Source: a virus | Virus record (IMG/VR): IMGVR_UViG_3300028607_001047 | Location: 1 to 28,159 of that record | DNA length: 28,159 nt | Strand: one strand, 5' to 3' | Shown: positions 23 through 28,047 of the stretch, one piece after another | Numbering within the stretch: position 1 is the stretch's first letter | How the letters are laid out: each line of letters begins with the position of its first letter | Notes under the pieces: model-generated | The model's input: only the letters and a program-made list of their open reading frames with translations | Databases searched by the model: none | Told to the model about the DNA's origin: nothing | Program-made: the position numbers and the translations under genes

Positions 23-106
23 TCAGCTAGTTAGGAAGTGTTTGCCGGGCTTGTCAAAACAGGATACAAACACGGAACGCAGCATTTTAGCGGCATCTTT
101 GTTCAT
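23..106 (-). CDS. Possible 27-aa small protein overlapping the methyltransferase stop
   Basis: A short frame starts with an ATG that overlaps the TGA of the methyltransferase gene (ATGA overlap) and encodes MNKDAAKMLRSVFVSCFDKP followed by GKHFLTS and a TGA. I recognise no family. The only support is the start-stop overlap, which is the same kind of coupling used elsewhere in this operon, and the lack of any other use for this stretch. It is basic with one Cys and has no clear membrane segment. It could equally be chance; the remaining bases to the left edge show nothing else I can support. Confidence 0.3.
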   Translation of the reverse strand: MNKDAAKMLRSVFVSCFDKPGKHFLTS

Positions 107-816
107 GCGGCGTTCTCGCTAAACCGCCCCACCTGATCGCCCCAAGCATCCCAGCCGGCGCGCTCTTGCCGTGCGAACAGTTCAAGATACGGCCCGTCTG
201 CATATTGCTCGATGCGGTCATGTGTTTCGTCAGGCTTGTGGCTATGCTCGCGGCGCGGTGCGATAATGATTTGATGAATTGACTTGGACAGACGGCGCGG
301 CTTGCCCTTGCGGCCTAGCAATAAAAACTCTGCATTCTGTCTTGTCGTGAAGCCCATGCCCATTGCAAAGCAACTTTCATCGACCCAACCATGCAAGATG
401 CCCTGCCGCGCGATTTTCTTTTTGCACTTCAACCAAACAAACGCCAGGGATGACGGCTCAAAACCCCAAGCCCGCATGACGCCGATATGATCGCCGCGCA
501 CAAGATTGGGACCAGTGACCCACATAAACAGGTGGCAGTCCTTGGCCGCAAGATCCACGATCGGCAATGCCTTGATGTCCGCCATGGACATTGTGTTGTA
601 ATGTTGCGACGGACTCCGACCATCCCCTTTGGGTGATCGCAAGGCGAAACTCCAAGGCGGGTCCGCCAGGATGACGCCATACCGCCCGCGCGGAACGGCA
701 GATATGTCGGTGTAGGCGGTCAAGCCACAGATGGCCTCCCGCTTCGCCGCAATCGCCACGTCGTAGCACCCCGCCGAATCCGCGCGCTTTTCATCGGCAG
801 TCAGTTCATCCGCCAT
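103..816 (-). CDS. MT-A70 family adenine N6-methyltransferase
   Basis: Predicted S-adenosylmethionine-dependent adenine N6-methyltransferase, probably acting on phage or host DNA. From the ATG at 816 the protein has 237 residues. The catalytic DPPW motif lies at residues 52-55, inside the typical context VILADPPWSF. The C-terminal half carries the other MT-A70 hallmarks: an LLLGRKGKPRR segment, APRREHSHKPDE, then LELFARQERAGWDAWG. I prefer the ATG at 816 because it lies 1 bp after the upstream stop and gives a natural MADELTADEK N-terminus; in-frame starts at 861 (ATG) and 867 (TTG) would overlap the upstream gene by about 45 bp. It is the last clear gene of the leftward operon. Phage enzymes of this family commonly modify DNA, which can protect it from host restriction; that role is inferred here. 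Confidence 0.9.
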   Translation of the reverse strand: MADELTADEKRADSAGCYDVAIAAKREAICGLTAYTDISAVPRGRYGVILADPPWSFALRSPKGDGRSPSQHYNTMSMADIKALPIVDLAAKDCHLFMWVTGPNLVRGDHIGVMRAWGFEPSSLAFVWLKCKKKIARQGILHGWVDESCFAMGMGFTTRQNAEFLLLGRKGKPRRLSKSIHQIIIAPRREHSHKPDETHDRIEQYADGPYLELFARQERAGWDAWGDQVGRFSENAA

Positions 817-817
817 A

Positions 818-1054
818 TCAGATCGAGTTTTTGCCCAGCTTGTGATCGCCGCACCAATCATCCTCAAAGACGACAGGATACCCGCTCATTGTTGGGGCGC
901 GCCGCCGGCAACGGCCCACCTTGGACTGGGTTGCTGGATAGAGAGTGTCAGGGCCAGCTTTTACGTCAGGCTTGTCCGAAGCCTTCACAACAAACCACAT
1001 GCAAGTGCGGCACCGCATCTCGGCACTTTGGTGCGCCCACGGATCGCTTGTCAT
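818..1054 (-). CDS. Cys-rich zinc-ribbon-like phage mini-protein (78 aa)
   Basis: A 78-residue protein with an MRCRTCMWF knuckle (CxxC) near residues 13-21, a second Cys in VGRCRRRAP, and a C-terminal DDWCGDHK. The Cys/His spacing resembles a small zinc-binding fold seen in short phage proteins, but the function is unknown. The start ATG is 2 bp after the hydrolase stop and is preceded by a strong Shine-Dalgarno (GAAGGGG, about 7 nt upstream), so it is very likely translated. It sits between the hydrolase and the methyltransferase. Metal binding is inferred from the Cys/His pattern only. Confidence 0.8.
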   Translation of the reverse strand: MTSDPWAHQSAEMRCRTCMWFVVKASDKPDVKAGPDTLYPATQSKVGRCRRRAPTMSGYPVVFEDDWCGDHKLGKNSI

Positions 1055-1056
1055 AA

Positions 1057-1797
1057 TTAGACCCCTTCGATGTCTTTGAAAAAGATGTGATTGCCGATAG
1101 TGACTTCGACATCTCGCCCCTTCGCCCAGTCAGGTTCGCGAGTCCCGCTCCGGTAATAGTGTGTGCATCCGTTGGTGGGGTCCGAGTCATCTTCGGTCAG
1201 AACCGTCATTGCGGCGGAGAGGCAGTCTGTAAGCCGAATATCTCGATAATCTACCGCTTTGATAGCCGCTCTGTTCGGGTCGTCTTTGTTCCAGCAGGAA
1301 AATTGCCAGGGCTTATGACAGACGGCGAAATATCCCTCGCCCCACCAGTCAGGCCGGTTATCGCGCCACAGATCGGCATCAACGCGATTGCGAACGACCC
1401 ATCCCACCGCCATAAGAGGCAGGCGTCCGCTTTCACCTCGCGCTTCGCCGTAGATCGTTCGGGCCAAGGCGTCAAAATCTCCGGGGGTCATGTCTGTTCC
1501 TTTTGGGTTGGATGGCTGCGCGTCGCGGTCAAGGATCATGGCGATAGTCCGGGCATAGCCGGAAATGTCGATTACACTTTCAAGGTGATCGGGGGTTTCA
1601 GTAAGGCGCGCCATTTTCACGCCGATCATTTCCAGGGCGTGCCGCACTAGATGGTGCGGACAGTCGCTAACGGCCTGCTTGATAAGCGCAGCGCGAGCAA
1701 AGTCCGTTGAAGGGTGTCCGTAGACGCTCCCTCTACGCTCGGTGATGTTGGCGACTTCGCTATCGAATGTTTTAAGTTTGTTTGTGATGGCTGTCAT
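1057..1797 (-). CDS. DUF6378-SleB fusion; cell-wall hydrolase (probable endolysin)
   Basis: A 246-residue fusion. Residues about 17-90 match the small phage domain DUF6378 (RRGSVYGHP, LKxxRLT-type helix MIGVKMARLTETPDHLES, VIDISGYA). Residues 103-246 match the SleB/Hydrolase_2 cell-wall hydrolase family: LARTIYGEARGE with the expected catalytic Glu, AVGWVVRNRV, PWQFSCWN, the CTHYY segment, and a terminal IGNHIFF. The hydrolase half should cleave peptidoglycan during lysis; the role of DUF6378 is unknown. The two parts are joined by a short polar linker (residues 91-102). The hydrolase half begins at an in-frame ATG (1491) with its own good Shine-Dalgarno, so a free 144-aa enzyme may also be made. 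The ATG at 1797 has no good Shine-Dalgarno but lies 7 nt after a -10-like box. There is no signal peptide, so release through the holin encoded at 27.5 kb is the likely export route. Confidence 0.85.
   Translation of the reverse strand: MTAITNKLKTFDSEVANITERRGSVYGHPSTDFARAALIKQAVSDCPHHLVRHALEMIGVKMARLTETPDHLESVIDISGYARTIAMILDRDAQPSNPKGTDMTPGDFDALARTIYGEARGESGRLPLMAVGWVVRNRVDADLWRDNRPDWWGEGYFAVCHKPWQFSCWNKDDPNRAAIKAVDYRDIRLTDCLSAAMTVLTEDDSDPTNGCTHYYRSGTREPDWAKGRDVEVTIGNHIFFKDIEGV
1489..1504 (-). promoter_or_regulatory. Internal ribosome-binding site and start for stand-alone SleB hydrolase
   Basis: Inside the fusion gene the minus strand reads AAAAGGA, then 6 nt, then ATG. This is among the best Shine-Dalgarno elements in the window. 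The ATG is in frame and falls exactly at the start of the hydrolase domain (MTPGDFDALA). This suggests an internal start giving a 144-aa hydrolase, or the remnant of two genes fused by loss of a stop codon. Confidence 0.6.
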
Positions 1798-1804
1798 GCA
1801 GCCA

Positions 1805-1833
1805 CTTATACCGACACATTGTATGCGTGTCTA
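1805..1833 (-). promoter_or_regulatory. Putative sigma70-like promoter before the hydrolase gene
   Basis: The minus strand has TAGACA (1833-1828), exactly 17 bp of spacer, then TATAAG (1810-1805). The -35 box overlaps the stop codon of the upstream gene. The element fills a 33-bp gap in an operon where gaps are usually 0-5 bp. A GACAC-N9-GTGTC inverted repeat spans the -35 box and the spacer and could be an operator. Transcription would begin about at the ATG (1797), giving a leaderless or nearly leaderless mRNA. Seen: the boxes and spacing. Inferred: activity. Confidence 0.4.
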
Positions 1834-22541: not shown

Positions 22542-25500
22542 TTAGTGGGTTGTAACTGCTTTCAACAAATTGACTTCGGCTGAAAGTTCTTGAACGGCCT
22601 TAACTAGCATAGGAACTAGCTTTCCGTAAGATGCTTCTAGCCTGTCTGGATTGCTCTTTAGTACGAGGTTCAGATAGTCTTCAGCATCCGCATTGATTTG
22701 AGCCTCGTCTAAATCTTGGGCGATAAAGCCAATCTCTTTGACGCCCTTCTTAGCGCCATCACGCATGTCCCAGACGAATTTGACGGGCTTCAGGTCGTTA
22801 ATGAAGTCCAGACCGACTGGCAGTTCCTCGATGTCCTTTTTATCCCGCTCATCTGACAGAGAGGATATGGTCTGAACTTGGCAACGGATGGCTGAGATAC
22901 TGCTGTTGCCAAATGTGATTTCATTGGATGCCGTGGCTGACGATGGATCAGCGCCGTTGCCCAAAGTTGTATTATTGTTCCCTGTTGTAGTTAGATAACC
23001 AGCACCATAACCAACGGCAGTATTAGCTAAACCCGTTGTATTAGACTTTAAAGATTGCTGGCCCAAGGCAGTATTGTTACTACCTGATGTATTTTCATAC
23101 ATGGCCATTCTACCAACAACAGTATTAAAGTTACCTGCTGTACTTTTAAATAAACTCTCTCTACCTAGAGAAACATTATACTGGCCATTTATATTAGCTT
23201 TAAGAGCGTGCTGACCTACCGCAATATTTTCGCTACCTGTCGTATTGGCTTGTAAAGCCTTAAAACCAAGAGCAACATTATTAGAGCCTGTTGTGTTGGC
23301 CTCAAGCGAATTAGCCCCAGCCGCTGTGTTGTATGAACCAATGGTGTTGGCTAGAAGCGCCCAACCCCCAGTCGCTGAGTTTTTTGTACCAGTAGTGTTA
23401 GCTTTAAGCGATTCAAACCCAGCCGCTACGTTGTCCGACCCAGTGGTGTTGTATCGAAGCGCATAAACCCCATTCGCTGAGTTGTGCGCACCAGTGGTGT
23501 TGGCATAAAGCGAACTCCCCCCAGTTGCTGTGTTACTCCAACCAGTGGTGTTGGAGTAAAGCGCATAATGCCCTAGAGCCGTGTTGACATCGGCAGTAGT
23601 ATTTGCAGATAATGCAAAATCGCCAAACGCGACATTGTTATCCCCGGCAGTATTGGCATCAAGAGCATAAGCGCCCATGGCTGTGTTGCTTGCGCCAGTG
23701 GTGTTGGCCTCAAGCGAATTAGCCCCAGTCGCTGAGTTGTTTGAACCACTGGTGTTGCTAAAGAGCGCGCTTTTCCCAGTCGCTGTGTTGCTTGCGCCAG
23801 CGGTGTTGTTATGAAGCGAAGAATCCCCAGTCGCTGTGTTGTACCAACCAGTGATGTTGTTAAAAAGCGCAGAATTGCCAGTCGCTGTGTTGTATGAAGC
23901 AGTGGTGTTGTTTCGAAGCGATCGATACCCAATAGCAGTGTTATACCAACCAGTGGTGTTGCTATAAAGCGATTGATACCCAGTCGCTGCGTTCGATGTA
24001 CCAGTGGTGTTGTTTCGAAGCGAATTAGCTCCAGTCGCTGAGTTGTATGAAGCAGTGGTGTTGGCTAGAAGCGCATAAGACCCAAATGCTGAGTTGTTTG
24101 AACCAGTGGTGTTGCTATTTAAAGCCTGTACACCTAAAGCAGTATTATTACTGGCTGTCGCGTTGGAATATAAAGAGTGATCGCCTATAGCAACATTATT
24201 AGAACCAGTTGTATTATTCCTTAAAGAGTCGTGCCCCATAGAAGCATTATAGCTACCCGTCGTATTAGCGTATAAAGCATAGCCCACAGCCATATTACGA
24301 ACGCCTGTAGTGTTATACCTTAAAGAGTACGCCCCCACAGCAGCGTTATGAGTGCCTGTCGTGTTATCAAATAAAGAGAAGTACCCCAAACCAGTATTGT
24401 TACTTACCGTAGTTTTATATAAAGCCGCCTCTCCTACGGCGGTATTACTACCTCCTGTCGCATTAAGTCGTAAAGCATTGCTGCCGACAGCAGTGTTGTA
24501 ATGGGCCGTCGTATTGCTATATGAAGCAGCAATCCCTATGGCAGTATTCTTAGTGCCTGTCGTATTATATCTTAGAGCGTCTCTCCCTGCGGCAACATTA
24601 CTGCTACCCGTTGTATTGTTCTTTAGGGCTTCGTAACCCACAGAACTGTTATCCTGACCAGTTGTATTAGCGTTTAAGGCTTGTTGCCCCACGGCGACAC
24701 TGTAACTGGCTGTAGTATTGCTAGCCATAGCCAATCTGCCGATGGCAACATTATAAGTACCTACCGTGTTACTTTCTAAAGCACTATAGCCTAAAGCAAC
24801 ATTGTAACCGCCTGTCGTATTATCATAGAGAGTTTTATAGCCAACAGCTATGTTACCAACACCTGTTGTGCTTCCAGACATAGCTAAATAGCCTACAGAA
24901 GTATTATTGTAGCCTGTTGTATTGGAGAGTAGGCTGTTATTACCGGCAGCAACATTACCATACCCCGATGAATTACCTTCTAGAGTTCTGTAACCCAAAC
25001 CAACATTCTGGTTACCAGTTGTATTATTCCTTAAAGAATAATAACCAAGAGCAGTACTACTGCCGCCTGTCGTGTTATATCTTAAAGAGTTATAGCCTAC
25101 GGCGGCATTATTTGCGCCCGTTGTATTCTTATTTAAAGCGTTTATCCCAATGCTAACATTTTTATTTCCGGTTGTGTTCTCATGCAAAGCCCCGCCACCT
25201 ATAGCAACATTATCACTACCTGAAATATTGTAATATAAAGCCATTCTGCCAGTAGCAACATTTCCGCCACCGGTAGTATTGAGGAATAAAGATTTATCAC
25301 CAACAGCAGTGTTAGAACCGCCTGTCGTATTATCTTTTAAGGCTTCATTGCCTATAGCAGTATTGTTGGTGCCTGTTGTATTGTCCTCTAAAGATTTATA
25401 ACCAGTAGCAGTATTTCGTTCGCCTGTAGTGTTCGACCTTAAAGCAGAACCTCCTATAGCAACGGTATAATTAACCGTCGTATTAGATTTTAGGGCCTGA

Positions 25501-27425
25501 TAACCTAGCGCAACATTCCTATAACCCGTTGTATTAGAATTTAGTGCAGCGCTCCCTATAGCAACATTTCTATAGCCCGTTGTATTATCCTCTAAAGAAC
25601 CACTTCCTGTAGCAATGTTGCTATAACCTGTCGTATTGTTTTTTAACGCATATTGTCCAATAGCGTAATTGGTGCCACCTGTTACATTGAATCTCATAGA
25701 CTCAGTGCCTATAGCAATGTTACCAGAACCAGATGTATTATCTGCTAAAGTTAGTGGGCCTATGGCAATGTTATCACTAGCGGTATTATTGAGCAAAGCT
25801 ACTCTACCAATAGCAACATTGGAATGGCCTATTACATTAGCGTTTAGGGCCTGTTTGCCTATAGCGACATTGTATTGCCCTGTTGTGTTATATTTTAAAG
25901 CAGAGTGACCTACAGCAACATTATCAAAACCACCTGCATTGTTCTGTAAAGATAATTTACCTACGGCGACATTACCATAACCTGTCGTGTTATATTTTAA
26001 GGCTAAATAACCTACCGCAACATTACCTCCAACTGTAGTGGCGCTGTACAATGCTTCATATCCAATAGCAACATTATCACGAGATGTCGTATTGGCGTAT
26101 AAAGCACTCCGGCCTACGGCAGTATTCCAATTACCTGTCGTATTGTTATATAAAGTCTCTCTACCTACGGCGACATTATCGCCTCCGGTTGTATTATATC
26201 GTAACGCACTCTGACCTACGGCGGCATTGTAATTACCTGTCGTATTGGAATATGAAGCGCCGTCGCCTATAGCAGTGTTGTGAGTGCCCGTGGTGTTAGC
26301 TGTTAATGCATAAGCACCAACGGCAACATTATTGCCTGTTATCGTATTATATAAAGCACTTTTACCGATAGCGGTATTACTAGAAGAAGTTGTAGCAGAG
26401 TAAAGAGCGGTATAACCAACGGCAACATTGTTATCCGACGTTGTACTGCTGTATAAAGCAGATTTACCTATAGCTACATTGTTATACCCTGTGGTGTGAA
26501 CTCTTAAAGTGCCGTAGCCTACAGCGGTATTGTCAATGCCCGTTGTATTATCTTTTAGAGCTTCTCTACCTACAGCAGTATTCCTATTCCCTGTCGTATT
26601 GTAGTATAAAGCCATTCGGCCTACGGCAGTATTGCTATTCCCTGTAGTGATCGCTGTGCCAGCTTCGTCACCAATTGCCACGTTGTAGTTGCCACCAGAT
26701 ACAATGGAAGCACCGGCACCATCACCCAGCGTGAGATTTTTCGTACCAGCCGAGTTTGTCTTGAGTGTGGCGTTTGTGCCCGTTGCGCCAAGGGTGAGAG
26801 TTGTGAATGAGCCAGCAGCGGGTGTAGTGCCACCGATACTCGCGCCGTCTACCGTGCCGCCGGTAATCACAACCGCGCTTGCCGCCTGTGATGCGATGGT
26901 GCCGGCGTCTGAAATTGTCGCTAGGATCTGCGTGCCAGTGTGATTGGCGCGCGCCAGGAGCGTCGCGTTCGTACTGTTTGCGGTGGCCCCGTTCGCAACA
27001 TTCAGGATCGTCCTCACTTCTACCGCCGTCAGTGCCGCCGTATTGCCGGTAGATTTCCGGCCAACAATCGTCGATGCACCGATGGTTAGCGGCAGCGGCG
27101 TGTTGTTGGCCGCCGCTGCCAAAATCGTATTGGCGCTGAAGTCGGTTTCCATTACCGCGCCGGCGGCGTTTACATTGGCCGTGCCGGTAACGTCCCCCAT
27201 GAGATTCAAGGACGCGGCGGTGAACGCATCTACATGAACCGTGGCGTTCTTTAGCAGACCGTCATCGCGCTGGATCAGAGCAAGGCTCGTCCTGATCTGG
27301 TCTGTCGTCGTGACAAGGGCGTTTAATTCGGTGTCCAGATCCACGCCAGTGTGCGGCAGGGCCGGGAAACTCGACGAAAACGTGGTGAAGTCCGCTTGGC
27401 GGATATATGCGACTGGTTGGGTCAT
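22542..27425 (-). CDS. Tail fibre/spike with 74 17-residue repeats and C-terminal S74 chaperone (1627 aa)
   Basis: A 1627-residue fibre from the ATG at 27425; a TTG at 27452 would add nine residues. Residues 1-65 resemble the virion-anchoring N-terminus of podophage fibres (LDTELNALVTTTDQIRTSL, then ALIQRDDGLLKNATVHVD). Residues 66-247 are a Gly/Thr/Ala-rich linker. Residues 248-1501 are 74 tandem units of about 17 residues, consensus N-T/V-A-V/I-G-x-x-A/S-L-x-x-N-T-T-G-x-x, similar to the head repeats of YadA-like adhesins and expected to form a trimeric beta-roll. From S1524 (SDERDKKDIEELP) comes a Peptidase_S74 intramolecular chaperone with its Ser-Asp dyad, expected to cut itself off as a 104-residue piece after trimer folding. 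The fibre would recognise the host surface. It is the first gene of the leftward operon, and no Shine-Dalgarno is evident. Confidence 0.92.
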   Translation of the reverse strand: MTQPVAYIRQADFTTFSSSFPALPHTGVDLDTELNALVTTTDQIRTSLALIQRDDGLLKNATVHVDAFTAASLNLMGDVTGTANVNAAGAVMETDFSANTILAAAANNTPLPLTIGASTIVGRKSTGNTAALTAVEVRTILNVANGATANSTNATLLARANHTGTQILATISDAGTIASQAASAVVITGGTVDGASIGGTTPAAGSFTTLTLGATGTNATLKTNSAGTKNLTLGDGAGASIVSGGNYNVAIGDEAGTAITTGNSNTAVGRMALYYNTTGNRNTAVGREALKDNTTGIDNTAVGYGTLRVHTTGYNNVAIGKSALYSSTTSDNNVAVGYTALYSATTSSSNTAIGKSALYNTITGNNVAVGAYALTANTTGTHNTAIGDGASYSNTTGNYNAAVGQSALRYNTTGGDNVAVGRETLYNNTTGNWNTAVGRSALYANTTSRDNVAIGYEALYSATTVGGNVAVGYLALKYNTTGYGNVAVGKLSLQNNAGGFDNVAVGHSALKYNTTGQYNVAIGKQALNANVIGHSNVAIGRVALLNNTASDNIAIGPLTLADNTSGSGNIAIGTESMRFNVTGGTNYAIGQYALKNNTTGYSNIATGSGSLEDNTTGYRNVAIGSAALNSNTTGYRNVALGYQALKSNTTVNYTVAIGGSALRSNTTGERNTATGYKSLEDNTTGTNNTAIGNEALKDNTTGGSNTAVGDKSLFLNTTGGGNVATGRMALYYNISGSDNVAIGGGALHENTTGNKNVSIGINALNKNTTGANNAAVGYNSLRYNTTGGSSTALGYYSLRNNTTGNQNVGLGYRTLEGNSSGYGNVAAGNNSLLSNTTGYNNTSVGYLAMSGSTTGVGNIAVGYKTLYDNTTGGYNVALGYSALESNTVGTYNVAIGRLAMASNTTASYSVAVGQQALNANTTGQDNSSVGYEALKNNTTGSSNVAAGRDALRYNTTGTKNTAIGIAASYSNTTAHYNTAVGSNALRLNATGGSNTAVGEAALYKTTVSNNTGLGYFSLFDNTTGTHNAAVGAYSLRYNTTGVRNMAVGYALYANTTGSYNASMGHDSLRNNTTGSNNVAIGDHSLYSNATASNNTALGVQALNSNTTGSNNSAFGSYALLANTTASYNSATGANSLRNNTTGTSNAATGYQSLYSNTTGWYNTAIGYRSLRNNTTASYNTATGNSALFNNITGWYNTATGDSSLHNNTAGASNTATGKSALFSNTSGSNNSATGANSLEANTTGASNTAMGAYALDANTAGDNNVAFGDFALSANTTADVNTALGHYALYSNTTGWSNTATGGSSLYANTTGAHNSANGVYALRYNTTGSDNVAAGFESLKANTTGTKNSATGGWALLANTIGSYNTAAGANSLEANTTGSNNVALGFKALQANTTGSENIAVGQHALKANINGQYNVSLGRESLFKSTAGNFNTVVGRMAMYENTSGSNNTALGQQSLKSNTTGLANTAVGYGAGYLTTTGNNNTTLGNGADPSSATASNEITFGNSSISAIRCQVQTISSLSDERDKKDIEELPVGLDFINDLKPVKFVWDMRDGAKKGVKEIGFIAQDLDEAQINADAEDYLNLVLKSNPDRLEASYGKLVPMLVKAVQELSAEVNLLKAVTTH
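22923..26684 (-). repeat. 51-bp coding repeat array of the tail fibre (74 units)
   Basis: I counted 74 consecutive units: 70 of 51 bp and four of 48 bp (units 7, 18, 45 and 48 lack one residue). The total (1254 codons) fits exactly between residue 248 and the S74 linker. Most units use AT-rich codons (AATACGACAGG type), but the stretches about 23290-23570 and 23670-24110 use CAACACCACTGG-type codons and are far more alike, which suggests recent local expansion. Copies at 23305 and 24019 are 714 bp apart (14 units) and share 51 of 56 bases. Confidence 0.9.
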
Positions 27426-27501
27426 GCCGGGATGTATAGCAAAATATTTCAATGTTGGCTATAGTCGGCATACAAGACAATCAGATTGAAGGGAATACGT
27501 T
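27426..27501. promoter_or_regulatory. Divergent promoter region between fibre operon and lysis cassette
   Basis: This 76-bp gap separates the leftward late operon from the rightward lysis genes. Leftward: TATACA (27438-27433) with a weak TAGCCA 17 bp before it, ending 7 nt before the fibre ATG. Rightward: TATAGT (27460-27465) with a weak TAGCAA 17 bp before it and a leader of about 30 nt holding the holin Shine-Dalgarno AAGGGA. The -35 boxes are poor, so a phage-encoded or alternative factor could be used. Confidence 0.45.
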
Positions 27502-27693
27502 ATGGAATTTATCACTTCTGCACTTGAGGATTTTCCCGTCTGGCTCCAGGCCGTCCTGGCTGTTGTCACGGCGGCAACCGCGATTACCGCTCTGACGCCA
27601 ACCACGGTGGACGACAAGGCGATTGGTTGGCTGCTCAAGATACTCAACGTGCTGGCCGGCAACATCGGCAAAAACCGCAACAAGGATGCGTAA
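27502..27693 (+). CDS. Probable holin (63 aa)
   Basis: A 63-residue protein with a strong transmembrane helix at about residues 13-33 ([19 protein letters not shown]), a [13 protein letters not shown] segment, a second moderately hydrophobic helix ([13 protein letters not shown]) and a basic Asn/Lys C-terminus (KNRNKDA). This matches a family of short phage holins ending in a similar Lys/Asn motif. It would permeabilise the inner membrane and let the cytoplasmic SleB hydrolase reach the wall. It is the first gene of the rightward cassette, with AAGGGA 8-9 nt before the ATG, and it overlaps the i-spanin start as TAATG. Confidence 0.75.
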
Positions 27694-27896
27694 TGTGGGC
27701 TCTCCTCGGCTGGCTCCAGGCCATCGCGAAGCTAGGCAACTGGATCAGTCGCTATGTCGAGCGGGCGGGGATGCGGCGTGATGGCCGCAATGCTCAAATC
27801 GTCGATAGTCTCAAGGTCCGCAAGCGCCGCCGCCGCAGGGCTGCTGCTGCTGTCCCTATCCGCATGTCTGATGACCCCCAAAATCGGGATCGTTGA
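27693..27896 (+). CDS. Probable inner-membrane spanin subunit (Rz-like, 67 aa)
   Basis: A 67-residue protein starting at the TAATG overlap with the holin. It has a hydrophobic or amphipathic N-terminal helix ([18 protein letters not shown]), a charged central helix, a run of five or more arginines, and the ending MSDDPQNRDR, a common ending of short Rz-like phage proteins. The o-spanin gene is nested in another frame within its 3' half, the diagnostic Rz/Rz1 arrangement. It is short for an i-spanin and the membrane anchor is weak, so the call rests partly on this nesting. The inferred role is to fuse inner and outer membranes together with its partner at the final lysis step. Confidence 0.65.
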   Translation: MWALLGWLQAIAKLGNWISRYVERAGMRRDGRNAQIVDSLKVRKRRRRRAAAAVPIRMSDDPQNRDR

Positions 27897-28047
27897 CGAC
27901 TGTGATATATTTTCCACAATTACCTACTCCGCCAGCCTGGACACAGCCGAAACCGTGAGTCAGGTGCGGCGGCATAATGCACGGTATCTGGCGCTGTGTG
28001 GTTCGAAAAGCGCGACGGTCTTAAATCTTAGCAATGCTATTTTATAA
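27781..28047 (+). CDS. Outer-membrane spanin lipoprotein (Rz1-like, 88 aa)
   Basis: An 88-residue lipoprotein nested out of frame in the i-spanin gene. It has a signal sequence (hydrophobic run AAAAGLLLLSLSA) with a lipobox LSAC, so Cys29 would be lipidated and the mature protein has 60 residues. The mature part contains CDIFSTITYSASLDTAETV and QVRRHNARYLALC, which resemble a widespread type of small phage lipoprotein (W/YS-x-x-DT-x-x-TV-x-Q-x-R-x-HN). Two further cysteines may form a disulfide. The ATG at 27781 is chosen; an ATG three codons later and an upstream start at 27754 are possible. The gene extends 151 bp beyond the i-spanin stop. It should act at the outer membrane in lysis. Confidence 0.8.
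   Translation: MAAMLKSSIVSRSASAAAAGLLLLSLSACLMTPKIGIVDDCDIFSTITYSASLDTAETVSQVRRHNARYLALCGSKSATVLNLSNAIL

Follow-up and report, generated by a model that had tools for sequence, protein, structure and literature searches.

A DUF6378–SleB-type hydrolase fusion gene in a virus fragment, with a probable internal start for the free enzyme

A gene that joins DUF6378 to a SleB-type cell-wall hydrolase in one reading frame is found in a 28,159-base IMG/VR virus fragment, the whole of which was analysed and is hereafter called the window. The likely origin of the gene is a recent in-frame merger, specific to this lineage, of two neighbouring genes, probably through stop loss, with the hydrolase start retained and the free 144-aa enzyme as the main product. 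A first-pass annotation had offered a recent fusion and a lysis timer as alternative readings, and the recent fusion is favoured here because no relative carries the fusion and because the junction falls on an old gene boundary.

The fused gene and its setting

The fusion occupies a 246-codon single frame on the minus strand, running from an ATG at 1797 to a TAA stop at 1057, and the plus strand of the same interval is interrupted by stops. Its parts are as follows.

1057..1797, minus strand: fused ORF, DUF6378 and SleB-type cell-wall hydrolase, 246 aa (ORF with Pfam/PHROG matches)
1492..1797, minus strand: DUF6378 part (residues 1-102, with the C-terminal tail), predicted to form a four-helix bundle
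1057..1491, minus strand: 144-aa hydrolase unit beginning at the internal ATG, with the fold of the SleB catalytic domain

Pfam profiles placed DUF6378 (PF19905) at residues 18-83 (1.1e-7, 32.4 bits against a cut-off of 27.1) and Hydrolase_2 (PF07486) at residues 129-240 (4.6e-13, 50.1 bits against a cut-off of 27). The description of one ORF with these two domains, previously given with the strand unstated, is thus borne out for the minus strand. PHROGs agreed with Pfam, the matched families being labelled phosphofructokinase and endolysins, and both domains are complete with their conserved residues present.

Among named phages, the window lies closest to Rhizobium phage RHph_N65 and Microcystis phage Mae-Yong1326-1, with 47-48% identity in the terminase and 41-45% in the portal protein; neither phage has a DUF6378 or hydrolase domain by profile. 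Shortly downstream of the fusion lies an MT-A70-type DNA methyltransferase gene (103-867, minus strand). Elsewhere in the window, a 1636-aa tail protein (22542-27452, minus strand) contains many short repeats of the form NTTGxxNTAVGxxAL, and its C-terminal end resembles intramolecular chaperone domains. Scanning with the C-terminal portion of a 2050-aa protein returned no relative, yet the sister phages found through the capsid do contain one.

Search for other fusions

Bioinformatic comparison covered 206 sequences. DUF6378 is present in 100 and the hydrolase in 106, both tallies including the window and its copy L001; only these two contained both domains. In all relatives found, the domains are encoded at separate loci, in agreement with the earlier statement that they are normally separate. 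Homologues with the same domain order, a check proposed at the outset, were found in none of the collections searched. Among phage records, no match covered more than 80% of the fusion, and no match spanned it in 385 alphaproteobacterial genomes. Scans of IMG/VR viruses with the fusion or either of its domains, together with one genome scan, gave no second fusion among the matches listed. Plasmids yielded matches to the hydrolase only and no second fusion; the long plasmid match H116 (H116 and H117 matched at 14-239) was rejected, its hydrolase lying within a TraG-like protein that has no DUF6378 by profile. Nine related viral records (capsid 50-62%, terminase 43% identity) showed no match to the fusion, and the sister phages with 50-62% capsid identity had none to the hydrolase either; this absence is weak evidence because several of the records are fragments.

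One of these nine records has DUF6378 with an unrelated C-terminal part. In a related phage (L234:588-1364, minus strand), a diverged DUF6378 continues in frame into about 160 further aa, and the DUF6378 of L018 likewise has a long C-terminal extension. It seems that DUF6378 is prone to C-terminal additions.

The DUF6378 part

Residues invariant in a 31-sequence DUF6378 alignment are kept in the window, and the predicted structure of this part is a four-helix protein. Its fold gave no reliable match and none by Foldseek at E <= 0.001; the best MazG-related fold match had Z 3.4 over 49 residues, and comparison with one phage MazG-like protein gave no profile match. The domain and its conserved residues are shared with stand-alone DUF6378 proteins (PF19905; PHROG 474/1167), the nearest at 53-65% identity. 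In contrast to the window, those are separate short proteins or bear other C-terminal extensions (L018, L234), with no hydrolase attached among the sequences searched. PHROG 474 and PHROG 1167 are labelled phosphofructokinase, also in several actinophage records, and no support was found for this name. DUF6378 genes have been described near DNA replication or modification genes in two papers (PMC11836647, PMC13432834), in one case within a replication/modification module of a brucellaphage (PMC11836647).

The junction as a probable former gene boundary

At 53-65% identity, the close relatives of the DUF6378 part are separate proteins that stop after about 93-111 aa, and the hydrolase relatives are separate proteins of about 140-167 aa. 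In 79 of 88 hydrolase relatives, which are non-independent samples that nevertheless agree clearly on the start position, the start with the best Shine-Dalgarno (SD) site is 9-11 codons ahead of the ARTxxGEA motif; the window ATG lies at 9. The start position of stand-alone hydrolases is therefore conserved and matches Met103 of the fusion. On the other side of the junction, DUF6378 relatives mostly end 14-25 residues past D-x-GYA, and the corresponding distance to Met103 in the window is 20 residues. Since both the start and the end distances match those of stand-alone relatives, the linker resembles a typical DUF6378 tail that overlaps the hydrolase ribosome-binding site. The elements at the junction and at the two starts are listed below.

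1492..1518, minus strand: junction codons CAG CCA TCC AAC CCA AAA GGA ACA GAC
1498..1504, minus strand: AAAAGGA Shine-Dalgarno-like site, 6 nt 5' of the internal ATG
1489..1491, minus strand: internal ATG at residue 103, where the free hydrolase probably starts
1780..1831, minus strand: pair of predicted hairpins around the start of the fusion; the second hairpin (GUGGCUG CAUGA CAGCCAU) carries the start ATG in its loop, z -2.4

A single C-to-T change would turn codon 94, CAG, into TAG, and this codon may be the former DUF6378 stop. The stop-loss step was not directly seen, because no relative with both genes adjacent and a stop between them was found; this arrangement had also been proposed as a check, and the 206 loci compared contain no adjacent DUF6378-hydrolase pair. 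Two phage matches, H1 and H2, begin at query residue 72 and were rejected as candidates: their annotated endolysin genes start further in, near Met103, and the upstream extension of each match reaches into the preceding gene.

The same junction could be read as an assembly error, the real phage having a stop or frameshift between two genes and the join being a contig artefact. The fusion is known from one sequence only, a single IMG/VR fragment; one base (CAG/TAG) would split the genes, and the junction lies exactly on the expected gene boundary. However, the reading frames flanking it are otherwise both intact, and single-base errors in an assembled consensus are rare. An artefact is considered unlikely, although it is the most probable of the alternatives; were the junction a sequence error hiding a stop, the case would be fully ordinary.

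Internal start and fusion start

The first-pass annotation had noted an in-frame ATG at 1491 with AAAAGGA 6 nt upstream and a free 144-aa product, and these details hold exactly: the A of the ATG is at 1491, the codon is residue 103, and the order AAAAGGA-ACAGAC-ATG leaves precisely 6 nt of spacing. Its further claim that the internal signal is better than that of the fusion start was supported on two scales. By pairing with the 16S tail alone, the anti-SD duplex energy is -5.8 kcal/mol at 1491 and -3.1 at 1797. Duplex energy alone served poorly as a discriminator, as it ranks ATG 1491 only 10th of 150 internal in-frame ATGs, a good but unexceptional position; spacing and accessibility did separate it. 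With a simplified, home-made initiation score that combines SD pairing, spacing and RNA unfolding cost, and which is a model rather than a measurement, ATG 1491 scores -1.8 and ranks first of 148 internal in-frame ATGs (the next scores 3.8). On this score it also beats 18 of the 22 predicted gene starts, whereas the fusion start at 1797 is among the worst (12.3).

An AAGGA placed 4-9 nt upstream is found at only six minus-strand ATGs, four of which are predicted gene starts, and the capsid gene and several others also use an AAAGGA-type site. RNA folding placed the internal start in an open stretch (z +1.2). The folding at the fusion start, with z -2.4, was reached in 3 of 200 shuffles; its hairpins could be due to chance or serve to control DUF6378 translation. 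Internal-start prediction of this kind also picked out, in a published survey, 15% of portal genes, which have no known internal starts (PMC9430671), so prediction alone is no proof of an internal start.

The two domains are usually separate, and the internal start is both better and located where stand-alone hydrolases begin; therefore, two products, or chiefly the free enzyme, are predicted, and the earlier expectation of two products stands as a prediction. It is quite improbable that the full-length protein is a selected bifunctional product in which the internal start is incidental. Such a protein would fit the open frame and the two complete domains with their conserved residues, but it has no second example, its start at 1797 is weak while the internal start comes first among 148, and stand-alone hydrolases begin at the internal start.

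The hydrolase and the lysis genes

A confident structure model was obtained for the hydrolase part, in which residues 94-241 match the catalytic domain of SleB, with Z scores of 15.9 for 4f55 and 15.7 for 4fet. Glu118 of the fusion is the conserved glutamate of GE(A/S)RGE, present here as GEARGE. This glutamate and the fold are common to the window and the Bacillus SleB catalytic domain (4f55, 4fet) at 26-27% identity. SleB itself acts in spore germination and has a further N-terminal domain, and the cut-off of the SleB equivalog TIGR02869 (spore cortex-lytic enzyme; NCBIfam) was missed (36.4 against 236.5 bits). Judged by sequence and model, the protein is a SleB-type, endolysin-type enzyme predicted to cleave peptidoglycan.

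Closer counterparts are the SleB-type hydrolases (PF07486) of the Pseudomonas phages PAJU2 and vB_PaS_IME307, which have the same catalytic domain at about 38-42% identity. With about 138 aa they resemble the free 144-aa form in length and start at the same place; unlike in the window, the hydrolase is a separate gene without DUF6378. The PAJU2 protein is named endolysin, and the IME307 gene adjoins Rz, holin and terminase genes, whereas the window hydrolase is not beside lysis genes. Candidate lysis genes of the window are the following.

27502..27693, plus strand: small membrane-protein-like ORF, holin-like by inspection only; its best PHROG has no assigned function
27754..28047, plus strand: Rz-like spanin with lipoprotein-type signal LLLLSLSAC, PHROG 1275

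The Rz-like spanin and the membrane-protein-like ORF at 27502-28047 indicate that the phage carries lysis genes, away from the hydrolase. The spanin ORF overlaps a small ORF (27693-27896, plus strand) in another frame, like nested Rz/Rz1 pairs, and the small gene upstream (27502..27693) ends in a TAATG overlap with that same ORF. As the spanin and holin-like genes lie on the opposite strand from the hydrolase and at the far end of the contig, we infer its lysis role rather than observe it. The contig is a fragment, and another endolysin may lie outside it.

Comparison with two-polypeptide endolysins

Two-polypeptide endolysins with in-frame internal starts are known from CTP1L, LysIME-EF1 and others (PMC4777826, PMC7098653, PMC9430671). 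The window shares with the CTP1L/LysIME-EF1 type one frame, an internal SD and ATG, a shared stop and two predicted products, and its ATG 1491 and SD lie outside the conserved domains, between the two. In the CTP1L/LysIME-EF1 type, which belongs to phages of Gram-positive hosts, the short product is the C-terminal cell-wall-binding subunit. The C-terminal unit of the window, in contrast, is the catalytic domain, and the short product is predicted to be the whole enzyme, with no cell-wall-binding short subunit.

The lysis timer suggested initially would be a regulated two-product gene in which the fused form keeps the hydrolase restrained or tethered in the cytoplasm and the free form is released later. 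It could draw on the very different predicted strengths of the two starts, the weak one being hairpin-bound with its ATG in the loop, and on the existence of two-product endolysin genes (PMC9430671, PMC4777826). Nevertheless, the analysis gave it no positive support. The arrangement is conserved in no relative, and nothing found links DUF6378 to lysis, the brucellaphage copy lying in a replication/modification module (PMC11836647). Known examples of dual-start endolysins add a C-terminal binding subunit and make no free catalytic domain, and a stronger free start would supply active enzyme from the outset. With the stronger of the two starts serving the free form, and with no conservation, a timer is very unlikely. 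The least likely proposal is that DUF6378 acts as an N-terminal partner that checks a SleB endolysin while the internal start gives free enzyme; lysis would then be controlled by two products, the short one being the complete catalytic enzyme.

Proposed origin and implications

Under the favoured explanation of a recent in-frame joining, a DUF6378 gene followed by a SleB-type endolysin gene, adjacent and in the same frame, would have merged in this phage lineage. The simplest route would be loss of the DUF6378 stop codon, for example by a change from TAG to CAG. The hydrolase would keep its own ribosome-binding site and ATG 1491, now inside the merged frame. The main product would be the free 144-aa hydrolase, made by ribosomes entering at 1491, and the weak, hairpin-bound start at 1797 would yield a smaller amount of the fusion; we infer both the stop loss as an event and this ratio of products. 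DUF6378 in the fusion would probably be tolerated as a passenger or retain a function of its own, and no new DUF6378 function would be needed. Once released, the hydrolase would cut peptidoglycan at the end of infection.

Internal starts in endolysin genes are already well known, and what the window adds, judging from sequence, is at most one example in which the short form would be a complete enzyme, different from those described. If the two products are real, the gene represents a snapshot of gene fusion in which a downstream translation start survives inside the new frame, and its internal start would give a complete catalytic domain where the studied endolysins give a binding domain. The case also cautions against annotating such a gene as a single 246-aa bifunctional protein.
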